Shown here: one piece after another, positions 35,882 to 51,692 of the stretch
How positions within the stretch are numbered: the stretch's first letter is position 1
Layout: each line of letters starts with the position of its first letter
From: Candidatus Hydrogenedentota bacterium
GTDB lineage: Bacteria; Hydrogenedentota; Hydrogenedentia; Hydrogenedentales; JAEUWI01
Assembly: GCA_019637335.1 (NCBI GenBank)
Contig: JAHBVV010000009.1
Span: forward strand, 124,001-188,000
DNA length: 64,000 nt
Reading direction: 5' to 3'
Position numbers and translations under genes: made by a program
Notes under the pieces: model-generated
What the model was told of the DNA's origin: nothing
Database searches by the model: none
Seen by the model: the letters and a program-made list of their open reading frames with translations, nothing else

Positions 35882-36772
35882 TCACTGCAAATCCATCGCC
35901 TCCATCCGGCGCTGCTCCGCTTCGGCGTAGCGGCGCCGGATCATTATATACCCAATCCCGAAAATCGCGCCGATCAGTCCGCCGCCATAGGCCGTCGGAT
36001 ACCACGCGTCCCACGTCGCGCCCGCCGACCACAGGATCAGTCCCGCGAGCATCATCAGCGCGCCCAGAACCGCGAAAGCCGCCGTCCCCGCCAGCACCCC
36101 GCGGCGTCCCCGCCCGCGCGAAGCGAGCATGCCCGCCACGCCGCCCCAGATCCCGCCCGCGGCGCCGAGTATCCCAAAGACGACCCCGGCCCAGGCGCCG
36201 ATGGGCCACGTTGAATCTGCTTCCCAGAGCGCCAGATTGCGAATCGTCACCGTGCCCGGGCCTTCGAAGCGGACCCCCAGCCGCGCGGCTTCCGCCTGGT
36301 CGCTGTCCTTGAAGAAGAACGGCGCAGATGTCGGTCGAAATGCCTGGGTCCCGCTAAACCGATCATTCAGCGCCCGCGAGAAATAGGCCTGCCCGCCCGA
36401 AACGACGTGCATCTCCAGGCAGGCGCCGCCCGCCGTAGACTCGCACGCCATCTCGGCTTCATAGACCAGCCGCCCGGGCAACGGCGCCGTAAGCGGCACT
36501 TCGGCAATCGTAACGGAGATCGACTCGCCGCCGGTATACGTCAGCCGCAGTGCTGGAATGCCGCCGGAATCGATCAGGTCGCTTTCGATGGCGTCCGGGG
36601 CCTCGAACGACGTCAAGTCCGCCTCGCCGATGCGCGCCAGAAGGTTTCCGTGCGAAAACGCGCCGGACACGGTCTCCGCGATCTGCGGGCGCCACGTATC
36701 GCCACCGCCGTTTGCGAGCGCCGCCGCGCACAGCATCAAGCTCCCGGTAATAAACGCGATCCTGGTTTTCAT
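35882..36772 (-). CDS. Membrane protein paired with DUF2089 regulator
   Basis: The 296-residue protein starts at the ATG at 36772, which overlaps the preceding regulator's stop (TGATG). A signal peptide (IAFITGSLMLCAAALA) is followed by an extracytoplasmic beta-rich domain to about residue 190 (LRLTYTGGESISVTIAEVPL, GTVTIRNLALWEADS). Three hydrophobic helices follow (WAGVVFGILGAAGGIWGGVA, AAFAVLGALMMLAGLILW, YGGGLIGAIFGIGYIMI), and the protein ends in a short charged cytoplasmic tail. I do not recognise the family. Translational coupling to a DNA-binding protein suggests a membrane sensor or anti-regulator, which is inference. Confidence 0.75.
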   Translation of the reverse strand: MKTRIAFITGSLMLCAAALANGGGDTWRPQIAETVSGAFSHGNLLARIGEADLTSFEAPDAIESDLIDSGGIPALRLTYTGGESISVTIAEVPLTAPLPGRLVYEAEMACESTAGGACLEMHVVSGGQAYFSRALNDRFSGTQAFRPTSAPFFFKDSDQAEAARLGVRFEGPGTVTIRNLALWEADSTWPIGAWAGVVFGILGAAGGIWGGVAGMLASRGRGRRGVLAGTAAFAVLGALMMLAGLILWSAGATWDAWYPTAYGGGLIGAIFGIGYIMIRRRYAEAEQRRMEAMDLQ

Positions 36773-37083
36773 CACGTGTGCTCCTCTGTTTCCAGGCTTT
36801 CCCGGTGCGCGCGCAGCAGGCGCCGCGCCAGGTCCCGGTTCAATTCGCCCCCCGCGACCAACTGTCGAACCAGCTGCTGCATGGGGTCCCCATCGGATGC
36901 CTCTTCGAGCGCTTCGACCTTTGCGATGAGCCTATCGAGCCGGCTGCGCACGGTAGGGTACGACACCCCGTAGGTTTGCGCCAGGGCCTTGAGCGATCCG
37001 GACGCCAGGATGAAACGGCGTACGAAGTAGAGGTCTTCCTCCTCCAGGGCGAGAACCCAGGGGGGCGGGGTGGGGTGTTTCAT
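36772..37083 (-). CDS. DUF2089 family HTH regulator-like protein
   Basis: The ATG at 37083 has TGGAG six bases upstream and gives 103 residues; an ATG four codons earlier lacks a ribosome site. The core matches DUF2089: LEEEDLYFVRRFILASGSLK then ALAQTYGVSYPTVRSRLDRL. The second segment is a clear helix-turn-helix. The C-terminal half (PMQQLVRQLVAGGELNRDLA) is helical. Proteins of this group are probable transcription regulators without a characterised member that I can cite. It is translationally coupled to the membrane protein downstream. Its promoter region contains an AT-rich palindrome (37150-37171) that may be its operator. Confidence 0.8.
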   Translation of the reverse strand: MKHPTPPPWVLALEEEDLYFVRRFILASGSLKALAQTYGVSYPTVRSRLDRLIAKVEALEEASDGDPMQQLVRQLVAGGELNRDLARRLLRAHRESLETEEHT

Positions 37084-37149
37084 ACGATGCTCCATTAACT
37101 TTATTAACCTTCAATTCAATTATATTCAATATCACCAAATATGTCAACA

Positions 37150-37270: not shown

Positions 37271-38020
37271 ATGAAGCTCGAAATCAACCGGGACGAACTC
37301 GAATCCATCATCCACCTCGGCGACATTACCGATCCCTGTCCCTATCTGTCCGATCGCGTCGCCACCTTCCGTTTCGGAAATGGCAAGCTCGCCGGCAGCC
37401 ATTACGAACAGCTGCTGGACTGGGGCTATCGCCGCAACGGCAACTATGTGTATCGTCCCGTGTGCCGCCATTGCCGGGAGTGCTGGGTTTTGCGCGTGCC
37501 GGTGGAACAGTTTCGCATGAGCAAGTCGCAGCGCCGCGTATGGAACCGTGGACAGAAGCATTTTGAGGTTCGCTGGGGTTCCGCGCGGTACACGCCCGAC
37601 AAAGCCGCCATGTACGAGCGTTACCTCGCCTGGCAGCATGGCACGAGCGAGGGCCCCATGGACCCCGATCGGTACCGTGCGTTTCTCGTGGACACCTGCC
37701 TCCGGCACGAGACCCTTGAAATGCAGTACCGGGTCGAGGGGCGCCTTGCCGGCGTCGGCATTGTGGACCGGCTCGAACACGCGCTGTCCACCGTGTATTT
37801 CTTCTTCGATCCCGATTTCTCGCACCTCAGTCCCGGCACCTGGTCGGCCCTCTACGAAATCCAGCAGGCCCGAGACTGGGGGCTGCGCCACTATTATCTT
37901 GGCTACTACATCGCCGGCTGCGGCTCCATGAGCTACAAGGCGCGTTTTCAGCCCTGCGAAATCAAACAGCCCGACACGCCCGGCTGGTCCCCCTACACGC
38001 CGACAGCAGTCCCGGAATGA
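37271..38020 (+). CDS. bpt: Aspartate/glutamate leucyltransferase (Bpt; ATE family)
   Basis: The 249-residue protein matches bacterial arginyl/leucyl-tRNA-protein transferases. The N-terminal ATE domain has Cys23 in TDPCPYLSDRVAT and Cys65, Cys68 and Cys71 in YRPVCRHCRECWVLRVPV, a cysteine set that binds metal or an iron-sulfur cluster in related enzymes. The GNAT-like C-terminal domain has VGIVDRLEHALSTVYFFFDP, GTWSALYEIQQARDWGLRHY and YLGYYIAGCGSMSYKARFQP. Bpt transfers leucine from Leu-tRNA to N-terminal Asp or Glu, marking proteins for ClpS/ClpAP. The start lies after AAGGCCGCCAA and faces away from the DUF2089 operon. Confidence 0.93.
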   Translation: MKLEINRDELESIIHLGDITDPCPYLSDRVATFRFGNGKLAGSHYEQLLDWGYRRNGNYVYRPVCRHCRECWVLRVPVEQFRMSKSQRRVWNRGQKHFEVRWGSARYTPDKAAMYERYLAWQHGTSEGPMDPDRYRAFLVDTCLRHETLEMQYRVEGRLAGVGIVDRLEHALSTVYFFFDPDFSHLSPGTWSALYEIQQARDWGLRHYYLGYYIAGCGSMSYKARFQPCEIKQPDTPGWSPYTPTAVPE

Positions 38021-38441: not shown

Positions 38442-40673
38442 TTGCATAATCACCTACCACGCAACATATTCCTTTTTTCGCTTTTCCTGCTCGCGGCGTT
38501 TGCGCGCGCGCAGGCCCCCGAGCGCGCGGATGCCGCCCCCGATTCCGTGGCGGAGGCTGCGCAACCGGCCCAGGGATCGCCCCGCGCGACGGTCCGCACC
38601 TTCTTCGAATCCATGCAGGCCTTCAGATCGGGGAATGAACTGCGCCTGCTTGATGCGGTGAATTGTCTCTATCTCGGCGACGGGCTCACGGATGACGTGC
38701 GCGTGAACCAGGGGGCGAGCCCCGCGCAGACGATTTACGCCGTGATGGAGCAGGTCCAGTTTGACCTTGGGGCCATCCCGGAGGCGCCCCAGGGCGACGA
38801 CTATACCCTGCGGCTGGGCGCGGGCGATGGGGCGCCCGTGCTCTACCTGCACCGCTACGAAGACGATGGGCTCTGGCGTTTCAGTTCCCGCACCCTGGAC
38901 CCGGCCCACCTCGATCGGCTCGCCGCGCACGCCGCGGAGCGCGCCAGCGCCAGCGAGCCGGAGTTGGCGCGTTTTGTTCCGCGGTTCCGCTCCCCGCGCG
39001 CGGCGCTGGAGGTTTTTATCAAGGGGATGCGCGGCGAAGACGGCTACACCCGCGCGGACGCGATCGGCGCCCTCGATCTTTCCGCGGTAAACCCGGTCGA
39101 TCGGCCGGCGGTGGGGGAGAGCAAAGCCTCGGATCTCCTGGCGGTCATCGAGCGCACCCGGCCGGTCATTCTTGCCGAGATCCCGCCGGATTCGAGCGGC
39201 GAAACCTACGTCTATTTTCAGGATCCGTTGGGCGCGGGCAGTATCGTGCTGGCGCCATTGCCCGATCTGGACGAACCGGAATTGCGGGCCTGGCGCTTCA
39301 CGAAGGGCACCCTCGAGCGCCTGGAGGCGCTGTACCTGAACTACCGGGACCAACCGCCGCTGGCCGGAGCGGGCGCGGCCTCCGCGCAGCGCCCCTGGTC
39401 CAACCGGATCCGGGACTGGATACATCAGTACAACCCGGCGCTCATGGAGTCGCCCCTGTACCTGCGGAACTACCAGTGGCTGGGCCTGCTGCTCCTCGTG
39501 GGGCTCGGGGTGCTCGTCAGCCGAATGCTCACACTCCTCGTCGGGGTGTTTCTGCGCTACTGGTTCCGGCGCAAGGGCTACGCCTACGACCGTCGCCTCG
39601 AGCGGGAATTCATTCTGCCGATCCGGATCTCGCTTATGGTCTGGGTCTGGCTCCTGGGCCTCACCCTGCTCGGCTTGAACCCCGCCGTGCTTCAGTATCT
39701 TCGCGTCGCCGCGTTCTTCGTGACCGCCGCCGGGGCCGTGTGGGCCAGCTACCGCCTGGTCGATATCGTCGGGCGCTACCTTTCCCAGCGCGCGCAGGCC
39801 ACCCCCAGCAAGTACGACGACCTCCTCGTCCCCATTGTTGTGCGGACGCTCAAGATCTTCATCATCGTTGCCGGCATTGTCGCCTTCGCCTACCAGTTCA
39901 CCACCGATCCGGCCGGGCTTATTACGGGCCTCGGCCTCGGCGGCCTGGCCTTTGCGCTTGCGGCCAAGGATGTCGTCGCCAACGTCTTCGGCTCCATCAC
40001 CATTTTGATGGACCGCCCATTCCGCATTGGCGACTGGGTCACGATCGGCACTATAGACGGGACCGTGGAGGAGGTGGGTATCCGGAGCACCCGCATCCGG
40101 ACCTTTTACAACTCGCTGATAACCGTCCCGAATTCCGCCATAACCAATACCCATATCGACAATATGGGCCGCCGCCGCTACCGCCGCATCAAGACAACGC
40201 TCGCGATCGCCTACGATACGCCGCCCGATGCCATTGAGGCGTTCTGCGAGGGCATCCGGGAGCTGATCCGGCAACATCCCTACACCCGCAAGGACTACTA
40301 TCACGTCTATCTGAACGATTTCGGCGCATCGTCGCTCGACATCCTGCTATACTGCTTCGTCGAGACGCCTGATTGGGGGACCGAGCTGCGGGAACGCCAT
40401 CGCCTGCTGCTGGATATTGTCCGGCTCGCGGCGGACTTGCGCGTGGAGTTCGCGTTCCCGACGCGCACGCTGTACATGCGCGAGGATGCCGCCCCCCAAC
40501 GGGATATAACCTCGGATGAACGCGCCGCTTCCGGCGCGGAAACCGGTCTGCGCGCCGCGCGCGGCATTCTGCGCCGCCACGGCGGCCCGCCCGGCGTGAT
40601 TCCGCCGCCGGTCTCCTACGAGCATCCCGAGTTCAATGCGCGCCCACAACATGGAGAAGACGACGATGAGTGA
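38442..40673 (+). CDS. MscS-family mechanosensitive ion channel with large N-terminal periplasmic domain
   Basis: The TTG at 38442 opens a signal peptide (NIFLFSLFLLAAFARAQA) and gives 743 residues; CAGGAG lies upstream. About residues 40-325 are soluble, with a duplicated pattern (SPRATVRTFFESMQAF and SPRAALEVFIKGMRG). Three or four transmembrane helices follow, and the pore-lining helix is GLITGLGLGGLAFALAAKDV, then VANVFGSITILMDRPFRIGD, the MscS signature. The beta and C-terminal domains have VEEVGIRSTRIRTFYNSLIT and VPNSAITN. The channel opens on membrane tension to release osmolytes. The long periplasmic region recalls MscK/MscM-type relatives. It overlaps the next small gene by 8 bp. 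Confidence 0.9.
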   Translation: MHNHLPRNIFLFSLFLLAAFARAQAPERADAAPDSVAEAAQPAQGSPRATVRTFFESMQAFRSGNELRLLDAVNCLYLGDGLTDDVRVNQGASPAQTIYAVMEQVQFDLGAIPEAPQGDDYTLRLGAGDGAPVLYLHRYEDDGLWRFSSRTLDPAHLDRLAAHAAERASASEPELARFVPRFRSPRAALEVFIKGMRGEDGYTRADAIGALDLSAVNPVDRPAVGESKASDLLAVIERTRPVILAEIPPDSSGETYVYFQDPLGAGSIVLAPLPDLDEPELRAWRFTKGTLERLEALYLNYRDQPPLAGAGAASAQRPWSNRIRDWIHQYNPALMESPLYLRNYQWLGLLLLVGLGVLVSRMLTLLVGVFLRYWFRRKGYAYDRRLEREFILPIRISLMVWVWLLGLTLLGLNPAVLQYLRVAAFFVTAAGAVWASYRLVDIVGRYLSQRAQATPSKYDDLLVPIVVRTLKIFIIVAGIVAFAYQFTTDPAGLITGLGLGGLAFALAAKDVVANVFGSITILMDRPFRIGDWVTIGTIDGTVEEVGIRSTRIRTFYNSLITVPNSAITNTHIDNMGRRRYRRIKTTLAIAYDTPPDAIEAFCEGIRELIRQHPYTRKDYYHVYLNDFGASSLDILLYCFVETPDWGTELRERHRLLLDIVRLAADLRVEFAFPTRTLYMREDAAPQRDITSDERAASGAETGLRAARGILRRHGGPPGVIPPPVSYEHPEFNARPQHGEDDDE

Positions 40674-40917
40674 CCCCGCCGACAAACAGCATGAAACGGC
40701 TCCGGAATGGCCCCCGCCGCCTTCCGTTCCGAAGGACGATCCCTACCCGCGCATGATTCTGGTTTGCTTCGCGCTGTTCCTATTGATCGGCATGGTGATC
40801 TTTGGGGTGCTGGTCGTGGACATGACCCAGCGCACGCAACGGCGTGTTGGGCCGCCGCCTCCCGCGTCCCAGCCCGCCGTGGAGGCGCCCGCCGCCGAAG
40901 GCTCAGGCCCCGGCTGA
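40666..40917 (+). CDS. Small single-helix membrane protein
   Basis: The ATG at 40666 lies inside the end of the channel gene and follows GGAGAAG at eight bases, giving 83 residues. The N-terminal 35 residues are polar and Pro-rich (ETAPEWPPPPSVPKDDP), one helix follows (MILVCFALFLLIGMVIFGVL), and the C-terminus is Pro/Ala-rich. No family is recognised. Coupling to the channel gene suggests an accessory or simply an operon passenger. Its 3' end overlaps the convergent REC-GGDEF gene by 15 bp. Confidence 0.65.
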   Translation: MSDPADKQHETAPEWPPPPSVPKDDPYPRMILVCFALFLLIGMVIFGVLVVDMTQRTQRRVGPPPPASQPAVEAPAAEGSGPG

Positions 40918-41835
40918 CTCTTCCGCCGGAGCCAGGCCGATGCCCCACTGGTACACCGAACCCGGGCCGGATTCCGCTTTCGCCTGGTTTAACGCCTGTT
41001 CCAGCCGCGGGAGGAGGGTGTCCAAATCGCCGCCGTCCTCCGGAAGGCCCACAATGCTCGCGCTGAACGTCAGCTCAATGCCCGCGACCGCGGTGGCGAT
41101 CGTCGCCAGTTGCTGCTGAATGCGGCGCGTGAGAATCGCGGCCCCCGCGCGGTTCGTCTCCGGGAGGAACAGGATGAATTTTCCGCCTTGATGCCGTCCC
41201 GCCGTATCCATCGCCCGGATGCTCGTCAAGATGACGCCCGCCAGGCAGGTCAGCAGCAAGTCGCCCATCGCCACGCCGCCATCCTCGTTCACAATCGAAA
41301 ATGAATCGACATCCAGCATGACCAGGCTTGCTTCGCGCTTGTAGCGGGCGGCCCGAAGCAGCTCCTCCTCCAGTTCCTTTTCCAGCGCCGGCCGGTTCAG
41401 CAGCCGGGTCAGCGGGTCCACCCGCACCATCTCCTCGTAGGACCGGCGCCGTTCCAGCACGGCCTGAACCCGGGCCACGAGAATCACGGGGTCGAATGGC
41501 TTCGTGATACAGTCGTCCACCCCGCTCCGCAGCGCGCGGACGTGGCTCTCCGTCTGGCCTCCTTCGACCAGGTACAGGAACGGAATCTCGCGGGTCACGG
41601 GATTCATCATGCACTTCTCGCGCAATCGGGCTCCGTCCATATCCACGATTGCGTGTTCGGTTACGATGAGATCAACGGGCCCGTCCTTCAGCCGTTTCAG
41701 CGCCTCCCAGCCATCCGAGGCGGAACGCACCCGGAAATTGGCCCGCGTGAGATAATCGCGCATGAGGTGCAGCGCATTCGCATCGCCTTCCACTACCAGA
41801 ACACTGCGCTGGCGGGCGTCGGGTATACTTGTCAT
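40903..41835 (-). CDS. Degenerate response regulator: REC domain plus inactive GGDEF domain
   Basis: The ATG at 41835 follows AGGAAG and gives 310 residues. Residues 10-128 are a REC domain (SVLVVEGDANALHLMRDYL, CITKPFDPVILVARVQAVLE). The phospho-acceptor Asp is replaced by Glu60 in VDLIVTEHAIVDMDG, and the first acidic pair reads EG in place of DD, while Lys112 is kept. Residues 137-300 are a GGDEF domain (VDPLTRLLNRPALEKELEEE, VMLDVDSFSIVNEDGG) whose active-site motif is GGKF (217-220) in place of GGDEF. Diguanylate cyclase activity is therefore unlikely. The protein may act as a constitutive phospho-mimic or as a c-di-GMP/GTP-binding scaffold. It is transcribed downstream of nhaA with a 40-bp gap. 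Confidence 0.85.
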   Translation of the reverse strand: MTSIPDARQRSVLVVEGDANALHLMRDYLTRANFRVRSASDGWEALKRLKDGPVDLIVTEHAIVDMDGARLREKCMMNPVTREIPFLYLVEGGQTESHVRALRSGVDDCITKPFDPVILVARVQAVLERRRSYEEMVRVDPLTRLLNRPALEKELEEELLRAARYKREASLVMLDVDSFSIVNEDGGVAMGDLLLTCLAGVILTSIRAMDTAGRHQGGKFILFLPETNRAGAAILTRRIQQQLATIATAVAGIELTFSASIVGLPEDGGDLDTLLPRLEQALNQAKAESGPGSVYQWGIGLAPAEESAGA

Positions 41836-41875: not shown

Positions 41876-43309
41876 CTAATGGTGATCGTGACCGTGCGTC
41901 TCCGATGAGGCGCGATCCGCCGGGCGTCCCGCCAGCAGAAGCACCGCCGAGCCGCAGACGCCCGCAACCAGACTGGCCGCAAGCGTCCCTACTTTCGCTC
42001 CGGTAAGCATCTCCACCACGTGGCTCGCGGTCTCCACGGAGCCGTGGCCCGCGTCGTGGCCCGCCGGGAAGGCCAGCCCCCCGATAAACAGCGACATCGT
42101 AAATCCGATGCCCGCAAGCCACGACACGCCCCAGAGCTGTAACCAGCGGACACCCTGGGGCAATTCGGCCAGGCCGGACCGCACCGCAAGCCACGACGCC
42201 CCCATGATACCCGCCTGCTTGCCAAGCAGCAACCCCGCCGCGACACCGAGGGTTACGGGCTCCAGCAGCAGCGACCCAAGCTGTGAAAACTCGAGATGCA
42301 CCCCGGAATTTGCGAAGGCGAAGATCGGCATGATGATGAAAGCCGTAATCGGGTGCAGCTTGTGTTCGATGCGTTGCAAGGGAGCCTCCACGTGCACGCA
42401 CTCCTCCTCGATCGCGCGCACGACGCGCTGCTGCTTTGAATTGACCTGCAATGCGCTTTCACTTCGCTCGGCTTCACGGAACCGGTCGAGCAATTGGCCC
42501 ACCCGGCTGATAAACAGGGGCGACTCGTAGCGGGCATCGGCCGGAATCGTGAAGGCGAAAAGCACACCCGCGACCGTCGCGTGTACGCCCGAGAGGAAGA
42601 ACTCCACCCAGATGACAACAAACATAAGCGTGAACACGAGCGCGTTGCGCACCCCGATCCGCGCAAAGAAGAACGAAAGCACGATCATGCCCAACCCCAC
42701 GAGGAGCGGGCGCGTGGCGATTGTATCCGTGTAGAACAGCGCGATTACCGCCACGGAACCGAGGTCGTCCACGATGGCCAGCGCGATAAGAAACACCGCC
42801 AGGGAGGGCGGGACGCGCCGCGTCAGAAGCCCCAGGATCCCCGCGCAGAAGGCGATGTCCGTGGCCATGGGAATGCCCCAGCCCGGCGCGCCATCGCCTC
42901 CGATGTTGATCGCGCTATAGATGATCGCCGGGCACGCCATGCCCCCGATCGCCGCGAGAATCGGGAGTAGCGCCTTCCGGAACGACGCCAGTTCCCCCAC
43001 CAGCAGCTCCCGCTTGATTTCCAGCCCCACCATGAAGAAGAAAATCGCCATGAGCCCGTCGTTCACCAGGTGGTGGAGCGATTTCGCGATTACTTCCCCG
43101 TGAATATAGAAGCCGAGGTTGACATGCCAGAGTTCCGCGTACCACTCGTATACCGGAACACCGAGGACCTTAATGCCGCAATTCGCCAGGAAAAACGCGC
43201 TGGCCGAGGCCGCCAGCAGGAACACCGCCGCCATCGCGCCGTGGTGCAGCAACTTCTGCAGCGTGGAGACCTGGTCAAGCGGCGGCGGATTCGGGGACTT
43301 GGCTCTCAT
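41876..43309 (-). CDS. nhaA: Na+/H+ antiporter NhaA
   Basis: The 477-residue protein has the NhaA fold of about 12 helices. Diagnostic segments are LVNDGLMAIFFFMVGLEIKR then ELLVGELASFRKALLPILAA, GWGIPMATDIAFCAGILGLL, and LIALAIVDDLGSVAVIALFY, whose Asp-Asp pair is the sodium/proton site. The helix XI region is LWGVSWLAGIGFTMSLFIGG. It exchanges cytoplasmic sodium for external protons to set pH and salt balance. The protein is longer than the roughly 390 residues of the E. coli enzyme: it has a cytoplasmic insertion around residues 265-315 (ESALQVNSKQQRVVRAIEEE) and ends with HGHDHH. It is divergent from citrate synthase. Confidence 0.95.
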   Translation of the reverse strand: MRAKSPNPPPLDQVSTLQKLLHHGAMAAVFLLAASASAFFLANCGIKVLGVPVYEWYAELWHVNLGFYIHGEVIAKSLHHLVNDGLMAIFFFMVGLEIKRELLVGELASFRKALLPILAAIGGMACPAIIYSAINIGGDGAPGWGIPMATDIAFCAGILGLLTRRVPPSLAVFLIALAIVDDLGSVAVIALFYTDTIATRPLLVGLGMIVLSFFFARIGVRNALVFTLMFVVIWVEFFLSGVHATVAGVLFAFTIPADARYESPLFISRVGQLLDRFREAERSESALQVNSKQQRVVRAIEEECVHVEAPLQRIEHKLHPITAFIIMPIFAFANSGVHLEFSQLGSLLLEPVTLGVAAGLLLGKQAGIMGASWLAVRSGLAELPQGVRWLQLWGVSWLAGIGFTMSLFIGGLAFPAGHDAGHGSVETASHVVEMLTGAKVGTLAASLVAGVCGSAVLLLAGRPADRASSETHGHDHH

Positions 43310-50600: not shown

Positions 50601-51692
50601 ATGCGCGAGGATCAGGACAAGACGCCACCCGAATCCGGCGCCCCCGCGCCCGGCTGGTCGGACATCCCCACCCGCGGGCTTGAGCCGGACAGCGCCCCGC
50701 CCGCGCCCCGCCGCACCTTTGACCCCGCCCTCGCCGAAACCGAACCGCCCACGATCTTCGACGACGCCGCGCCCCGCGCTCCGCGGGCGTTGCGGCTCGG
50801 CCTCGGTGGCCCCCCGCGCGAACTGCCTCCCGGATACATCATCGACGAGCGCTTCGAGGTGGTCCGCCGCCTCGGCGCCGGCAGCACCGGCACGGTCTAC
50901 CTCGTGAACGACTTGCGCCTCAAGGATCGCAAGGCCCTCAAGCTCATGCACCCGCCCCTCGGCGACCGCGAGGCCGCCGCCCGGCGCTTCATATCCGAAA
51001 TCAAGACCCTCCAGCAGCTCAGCCATGAGAACATCATCCGCGTCTACGACTACGGGCAGACCGAAGAGGGCGGGCGCTCGTTTTTCACCATGGAATATAT
51101 CGACGGCGTCAGCCTCGCCGACCTCCTCAAGAAAAAGGGCGGGCGCCTGCCACTCGATCGCGCTGCCGCGCTCATGCAGCAGATCCTCGAGGCCCTCGCC
51201 TGCGCCCACGCCCAGATGGCCCACCGCAACCTCAAGCCTGTGAATATCATGGTCCGGCCCACCGGGCGCGCGGTCCTGCTCAACTTCGGCGTCTTCACCT
51301 CCGCCAGCAGCGCCGGCCTCGCCCAGCCGACCGCCCCCGCGCTCCCCTCGCACTACCTCGCCCCCGAACAGCGCGAAAACCCCGATTGCGCCGACGCCCG
51401 CAGCGACATCTACGCCGCCGGCGCCATCTTCTACCAGATGATCACCGGCCAGGTCCCCCTCGCCGATGCGCTACCGCCCTCGCGCGTCATGCACGGCATC
51501 CCCCGCCGCGCCGACAAGGCCGTCATGAAAGCCCTCGCCGAGCGCCCCGAAGATCGCCACCCCACCTGCCAGGCCATGATCGCCGCCATCAACCGCGCCC
51601 TGACACCCGGCCCCCCCATCGCGCGCATCGCGGCCATCGTGTTCGTACTCATCGCTCTCGCCGTGGGCGCAAGTGTGCTCTGGTGGTGGTAG
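50601..51692 (+). CDS. Membrane-anchored Ser/Thr pseudokinase
   Basis: The 363-residue protein follows GGCAGGAG at proper spacing. After an 80-residue Pro-rich leader, a Hanks-type kinase domain runs from about 85 to 335. Present are the Gly loop LGAGSTGTVYLV (91-102), the ATP-binding Lys114 in KALKLM, Glu133 in SEIKTLQQL, LAPEQ at 253-257 and Asp269 in DARSDIYAAG. Missing are the catalytic Asp, since HRD reads HRN (208-210), and the magnesium Asp, since DFG reads NFG (228-230). One C-terminal helix (IARIAAIVFVLIALAVGASV) anchors it with the kinase fold in the cytoplasm. It is therefore predicted to bind partners or nucleotide without transferring phosphate. It is divergent from the PsiE-like gene and convergent with the Septu-like pair. 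Confidence 0.9.
   Translation: MREDQDKTPPESGAPAPGWSDIPTRGLEPDSAPPAPRRTFDPALAETEPPTIFDDAAPRAPRALRLGLGGPPRELPPGYIIDERFEVVRRLGAGSTGTVYLVNDLRLKDRKALKLMHPPLGDREAAARRFISEIKTLQQLSHENIIRVYDYGQTEEGGRSFFTMEYIDGVSLADLLKKKGGRLPLDRAAALMQQILEALACAHAQMAHRNLKPVNIMVRPTGRAVLLNFGVFTSASSAGLAQPTAPALPSHYLAPEQRENPDCADARSDIYAAGAIFYQMITGQVPLADALPPSRVMHGIPRRADKAVMKALAERPEDRHPTCQAMIAAINRALTPGPPIARIAAIVFVLIALAVGASVLWWW

Follow-up and report, generated by a model that had tools for sequence, protein, structure and literature searches.

The locus

The window, by which we mean the whole stretch of 64,000 nucleotides analysed here, comes from a Candidatus Hydrogenedentota bacterium and carries a gene for a two-domain response regulator in which both the receiver and the cyclase signatures are degenerate. 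The initial annotation had described a REC-GGDEF protein with Glu at the phospho-site and a GGKF motif at 40903-41835; the coordinates are right, the gene lies on the minus strand, and the letters on which the description relied (VTEHAIVDMDG, V90 and GGKF) are confirmed. The gene, its domains and its surroundings are as follows.

40903..41835, minus strand: degenerate REC-GGDEF gene, 310 aa, ATG at 41835 and stop at 40903
41467..41802, minus strand: REC domain, residues 12-123, an aspartate-less receiver (Pfam PF00072, 57.8 bits)
40972..41421, minus strand: GGDEF domain, residues 139-288 (Pfam PF00990, 100.8 bits)
41847-41842, minus strand: AGGAAG just 5' of the ATG of the degenerate gene
41876..43309, minus strand: nhaA, Na+/H+ antiporter (Pfam PF06965), directly upstream of the degenerate gene with a 40 bp gap
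40636-40917, plus strand: small protein that has a single hydrophobic segment and carries the conserved motif DP[YF]PRM, no Pfam match, overlapping the 3' end of the degenerate gene by 15 bp
37271-38020, plus strand: arginyl-tRNA-protein transferase, an enzyme of the N-degron pathway (ATE_N and ATE_C)
36772-37095: DUF2089 HTH gene, adjoining the arginyl-tRNA-protein transferase gene
50601-51692, plus strand: Pkinase-family protein (117.8 bits) with HRN and NFG for HRD and DFG and a hydrophobic C-terminal segment

Pfam finds REC and GGDEF alone in the REC-GGDEF protein, with no EAL or other output domain attached, and its GGDEF domain is recognised both by sequence (Pfam) and by fold (Foldseek). 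The closest solved structure by sequence is PleD, whose numbering is used below as given by the HMMER alignment (query number plus 152, valid up to R390). The Pkinase-family protein had been paired with the REC-GGDEF protein as a second dead signalling protein; it is indeed a pseudokinase by motif, but it lies 8.8 kb away and there is no sign of a tie between the two genes.

Residues lost and residues kept

The positions that matter for phosphorylation, catalysis and ligand binding are, all on the minus strand:

41656..41658: phospho-acceptor position, E60 (GAA) in VTEHAIVDMDG
41566..41568: switch Thr position, V90
41176..41190: degenerate A-site QGGKF, residues 216-220 (Q216-G-G-K-F220)
41206..41217: I-site RxxD, R207-A-M-D210 (PleD R359 and D362), in 20/20 orthologs
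41353..41355: R161 (PleD R313, the I-site arginine supplied in trans), in 20/20 orthologs
41122..41124: R238 (PleD R390, I-site arginine), in 20/20 orthologs

Residues were counted in a single MAFFT alignment of 20 degenerate and 10 canonical proteins. In the window receiver, the loss of the acceptor Asp and of the switch Thr is accompanied by that of the second acid of the acid pair (E16-G17-D18). Across the 20 degenerate orthologs, 14 have E at the acceptor position, two have D, and K, R, Q and S occur once each, so that 18 are non-Asp; the switch Thr is present in five and gone from 15, the second acid is D in ten and the REC Lys is retained in 18. In the catalytic site, QGGKF aligned with the GGEEF of the sisters has Gln for the first Gly, Gly for the catalytic acid and Lys for the second acid, and the phosphate Lys is gone as well (S180 at PleD K332). 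None of the 20 orthologs has an intact GG[DE]EF. The first Gly of the motif is retained in one, the E370-equivalent is E in six and D in two, the E371-equivalent is E in one, and the K332-equivalent is never K (R in two); a single ortholog, L014 with RSEEF, has both motif acids. Judged by these residues, the window A-site is probably incompatible with catalysis and its receiver probably cannot be phosphorylated. The initial annotation had proposed to look for conservation of E60 and of the altered motif: the loss of GG[DE]EF is indeed common to the whole family (20/20), whereas Glu at the acceptor is not.

The I-site presents a different picture. All four of its residues, R161, R207, D210 and R238, are invariant in the 20 degenerate orthologs. 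The c-di-GMP site of PleD is described as consisting of these four residues, with one domain contributing R313 and its partner domain the remaining three (PMC7288161), and an equivalent role is ascribed to R242 and R198 of WspR (PMC2270323). Of 56 GGDEF columns that are invariant in the ten canonical sisters, 15 are retained in all 20 degenerate proteins, and all four I-site columns are among these 15 (hypergeometric p = 0.004, for a column set picked after looking). Two observations speak against reading too much into this. The I-site is likewise invariant in 10/10 canonical sisters, and part of its conservation may thus stem from inheritance or fold. In addition, the guanine pocket is almost as conserved as the I-site (N183 in 19/20 and D192 in 20/20, with D175 and K286 each in 19/20), and a pure I-site receptor has no need of this pocket. 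The D and the T of DxLT are also both retained in 20/20.

Origin and maintenance of the degenerate family

A degenerate ortholog is found in 20 of 68 genomes of the Hydrogenedentota order (395-490 bits to model A1), spread over six families (six in family 1, one in family 2, two in family 3, seven in family 5, one in family 9 and three in family 10). Ten genes with canonical residues score 303-338 bits to the same model in these genomes, G036 being the only genome with both kinds, and 39 of the 68 have neither at E 1e-50, absence counts that are soft given this cut-off and incomplete assemblies. With co-occurrence in one of 29 genomes and a chance expectation of only about three, we make no claim that degenerate and canonical copies exclude one another. 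Of 259 confirmed relatives among named records, 80 were retained; the top 16, at 39-70% identity, comprise 14 Hydrogenedentota/Hydrogenedentes MAGs and two 'uncultured bacterium' records; the next is a Bdellovibrionaceae MAG at 29%. At the search sensitivity used, the degenerate family thus looks limited to the Hydrogenedentota order.

A tree was built from the 20 degenerate proteins, the 10 canonical ones and 7 outgroup sequences, 37 in all; one branch splits off the 20 degenerate proteins with support of 100/100 and in 100% of 200 bootstrap trees. The degenerate clade has a single, old origin. Since the outgroups have the acceptor Asp (7/7) and mostly an intact GG[DE]EF (6/7), the canonical state is ancestral and the losses in the degenerate clade are derived. 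The canonical sisters do not form one clade, G009 standing apart, and the degenerate clade may therefore have arisen inside or beside the canonical group.

All 30 degenerate and canonical proteins read through without internal stops. For four close genomes, NG86 estimates for the whole gene are dN 0.17-0.33 and dS 1.3-2.3, with a dN/dS of 0.09-0.24 that is rough, as dS is near saturation and, for gene parts, undefined in some pairs; nhaA gives similar values. With this low dN/dS, the degenerate gene looks functional. The 20 orthologs, their single 100/100 clade and the low dN/dS together rule out a lone decayed copy among otherwise canonical orthologs, the outcome that the initial annotation had named as fatal to its own proposal.

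We also considered whether the receiver is the better conserved module and might thus serve as the output. Pairwise identity among degenerate proteins is 0.498 for REC and 0.484 for GGDEF, REC exceeding GGDEF in 108 of 190 comparisons; among canonical proteins it is 0.600 and 0.616, with REC higher in 18 of 45. There is no clear difference between the two domains, and conservation therefore gives no support to a reversed signal flow.

Neighbourhood and the missing kinase

A kinase gene lies directly upstream of the canonical sister, which has a D acceptor and GGEEF, in 10/10 loci. Its PAS-HisKA-HATPase make-up was established by Pfam on two of these kinases, and where genes were called kinase and cyclase mostly touch or overlap, with a spacing of at most 362 bp. 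By tblastn, a homolog of this kinase is adjacent in 0/20 degenerate loci (for L046, only 1050 upstream bases were available), and a distant homolog lies about 6 kb off in two of them, L041 and L043. This absence covers homologs of the sister kinase at the locus; an unrelated kinase may exist elsewhere. Loss of the kinase partner thus coincides with that of the acceptor and of the A-site.

No neighbour or output partner is common to all 20 degenerate loci or to all families. In family 1, the degenerate gene sits behind nhaA, in the same orientation and 19-81 bp from it, in 6/6 genomes having the gene, and the seventh genome of the family, G003, has neither gene. Outside family 1, nhaA is on another contig in G014 and has no match at 1e-30 in the other 13 gene-bearing genomes. 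NhaA is thus rejected as a general partner, the adjacency being confined to family 1. The DP[YF]PRM membrane protein was likewise considered as a fixed partner and is ruled out by its patchy linkage and its occurrence without the gene: it has strong E-values in nine genomes of the order and stands beside the degenerate gene at 4/20 loci; it is on another contig or far off in G002, G003, G004, G005 and G013, although two of these genomes, G003 and G013, are without the degenerate gene, and others, G008 among them, give no match. At six family-5 loci, an M28 peptidase gene (Pfam on one) converges on the degenerate gene.

In family 3 (L040/L119; G017 and G008), genes for an ECF sigma factor and for an anti-sigma-like zf-HC2 protein lie upstream of the degenerate gene and diverge from it; next comes a gene for a pilus/secretion ATPase that contains an MshEN domain (Pfam on L040 only). 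In other proteins, MshEN is a c-di-GMP binding domain.

c-di-GMP supply and a second degenerate family

The organism's own genome has 17 GGDEF matches, nine of them with GG[DE]EF in the stretches read, as well as 11 PilZ matches and one EAL; two others of the 17 are near misses (GGEEM and GGDEG). This set suggests that c-di-GMP signalling most likely operates in the organism, and the ligand should, as far as gene content tells, most likely be available to the window protein.

The same genome encodes a second protein of this kind:

G000:C22:70545-71087 (locus L117/L154), orthologs L155-L183: second degenerate REC-GGDEF

Its REC acceptor Asp is intact, its A-site reads DGAMF and RNYD stands at RxxD. 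It is placed among the outgroups of the tree, so the loss of its A-site is independent of that in the window family. Strong matches to its GGDEF part (E up to 1.2e-33) occur in 62 of the 68 genomes, and G014 has a partial one, giving about 63 genomes as counted by eye. In 30 aligned matches from these, RxxD is present in 30/30, GG[DE]EF in 0/30 and the acceptor Asp wherever REC is covered (29/29), and the A-site resembles RYDG[AT]xF. A near order-wide second family that has kept RxxD strengthens a receptor reading through repetition.

Structure models

The AlphaFold2 model of the window protein (20-row alignment) has a mean pLDDT of 86.3 and a pTM of 0.56. It matches DgcR with bound c-di-GMP (6zxm) with a TM-score of 0.72 on the query and 0.76 on the target (rmsd 3.9), as against 0.45/0.48 for native DgcR (6zxb) and query values of 0.41-0.46 for other full-length REC-GGDEF chains in the PDB. 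A canonical sister modelled as a control (9-row alignment; pLDDT 85.7, pTM 0.59) has native DgcR 6zxb as its best full-length match (0.65/0.67), with 0.48/0.50 for 6zxm. The difference runs in the direction that a receptor reading predicts; we give it little weight, and with one model per protein and pTM values of 0.56 and 0.59, domain placement is uncertain.

A predicted c-di-GMP receptor and its alternatives

We consider it fairly probable that the window protein acts as a c-di-GMP receptor, of the kind known from PopA and SgmT, and that it derives from a former phosphorylation-controlled diguanylate cyclase; most likely, it senses c-di-GMP rather than making it. The ancestor would have been a REC-GGDEF cyclase whose operon also encoded a histidine kinase. 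One lineage would then have dropped this kinase gene together with the phospho-acceptor and the catalytic A-site, while retaining the I-site. In active cyclases the I-site serves product inhibition. In the window protein, we infer, it would bind c-di-GMP made by the cell's other cyclases, with R207, D210 and R238 from one protomer and R161 from the other; the bound ligand would cross-link two GGDEF domains and fix the dimer in a compact state, like that of product-inhibited DgcR, and this state would recruit or release a partner protein. In family 1, going by gene order, this partner is possibly linked to NhaA. The loss of receiver input and cyclase output with retention of the two-domain architecture, as first proposed from the letters, is supported by this comparison. 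Of the proposed 'locked scaffold or effector', the effector half holds, and the conserved I-site makes a c-di-GMP receptor more specific than a locked scaffold.

Known proteins offer close parallels. PopA, the Caulobacter paralog of PleD, is like the window protein a GGDEF response regulator with a degenerate A-site and an intact RxxD. PopA has two REC domains, whereas the window protein has one, without the acceptor Asp, and what we claim is a likeness, not orthology. PopA is described as an effector that binds c-di-GMP and has a degenerate A-site with an intact RxxD (PMC12564702). The GGDEF domain of SgmT from Myxococcus also combines a dead A-site (GGGVF) with an intact I-site (RHPD), and c-di-GMP binding through the I-site is reported to place SgmT in the cell (PMC3509222); SgmT, however, is a histidine kinase with GAF and receiver domains, whereas the window protein is REC-GGDEF only. 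ActA, also from Myxococcus, has the identical two-domain architecture, an N-terminal receiver and a GGDEF domain, with the same pattern of degenerate A-site and intact I-site (PMC3509222), and is reported to be dispensable for development (PMC4877007). DgcR (Leptospira), WspR and PleD share the REC-GGDEF fold and are found by sequence and fold matches, the I-site residues of PleD aligning, but they are active phosphorylation-controlled cyclases, whereas the window protein lacks the acceptor Asp and the A-site. As a caution, an inactive GGDEF domain does not always bind the ligand: TmoK of M. xanthus is described as neither making nor binding c-di-GMP (PMC4877007). The same source describes DmxB D60N as functional, and REC-GGDEF proteins may thus act without phosphorylation.

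Several other functions would be compatible with parts of these data. The protein could be a dead partner subunit that forms heterodimers with active REC-GGDEF cyclases through REC and the coiled coil, damping or targeting them, its I-site having been retained for cross-linking in trans to an active GGDEF domain. There are 16 other GGDEF domains in the genome for it to meet, the trans-supplied R161 is invariant (20/20), and the α4-β5-α5 part of REC (94-131) is the best conserved stretch of the domain (mean majority frequency 0.70, against 0.62 for 11-93). The same stretch leads among the canonical sisters too (0.81 vs 0.70), however, and is thus no special feature, and the nearest active relative, the canonical sister, is present in only 1/20 genomes (G036); we regard this function as unlikely, if worth keeping in mind. 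Alternatively, the A-site could bind GTP or another guanine nucleotide without catalysis and switch the protein, as described for CC3396, in which a degenerate, GTP-binding GGDEF turns on the linked EAL domain (PMC7288161). The retained guanine and metal residues (N183, D192, D175 and K286, each in at least 19/20) fit such a sensor, but the K332-equivalent Lys is lost in 20/20 (R in two), both motif acids survive only in L014 (1/20), and the window protein has no EAL or other output domain of the kind linked in CC3396. We find a nucleotide sensor rather improbable.

It had also been suggested that the Asp-to-Glu change mimics constitutive phosphorylation, so that E60 would lock REC in the active dimer as an always-on scaffold. 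Receivers without Asp are put at about 4% of all, with Glu making up 26% of those substitutions (PMC12548384), and CmrT of C. difficile, an OmpR-family response regulator and not a GGDEF protein, has like the window protein an aspartate-less receiver with a natural Glu acceptor and a DGD motif comparable to E16-G17-D18 for the acid pair, and is inferred to be active (PMC12548384). Glu is indeed the acceptor residue in 14/20 orthologs, yet four others carry K, R, Q or S there and two have D, the loss of the switch Thr in 15/20 breaks the usual switch chain, and the exchange of Asp for Glu is described as not always sufficient (PMC12548384). As a family property the phospho-mimic does not stand; a permanent 'on' state across the family is unproven, and we hold it to be highly doubtful. 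The least credible explanation, to which we attach almost no weight, is that the gene is decaying or that the protein has retained some cyclase activity. The A-site letters do vary among orthologs, and active cyclases with an altered motif are reported, such as VCA0965 with AGDEF (PMC3974145), but decay is at odds with 20 open orthologs in a single old clade under a dN/dS like that of nhaA, and residual activity with Gly and Lys at both acid positions of the window protein.

Implications

The principle behind the receptor reading is not new, dead GGDEF domains with a live I-site being known receptors. The variant here joins a predicted unphosphorylatable REC and an apparently dead A-site to a conserved I-site. 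No work on c-di-GMP signalling in Hydrogenedentota turned up in the literature searched, which did not extend to preprints, alternative wordings or the majority of subscription journals. In the window family, phosphorylation input, kinase partner and catalysis all appear to have gone along one branch, with the ligand site untouched, and the canonical sisters in the same order provide a built-in control, so that the role of an I-site with no enzyme left to inhibit becomes testable. More speculatively, Hydrogenedentota may at least twice have turned REC-GGDEF cyclases into c-di-GMP readers, the window family taking its input at the I-site and using the dimer face of an unphosphorylatable REC as output, with a family-1 partner in Na+/H+ homeostasis; we rate this combined proposal as a long shot. 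If it were true, the nhaA-operon partner in family 1 would tie c-di-GMP to ion balance.
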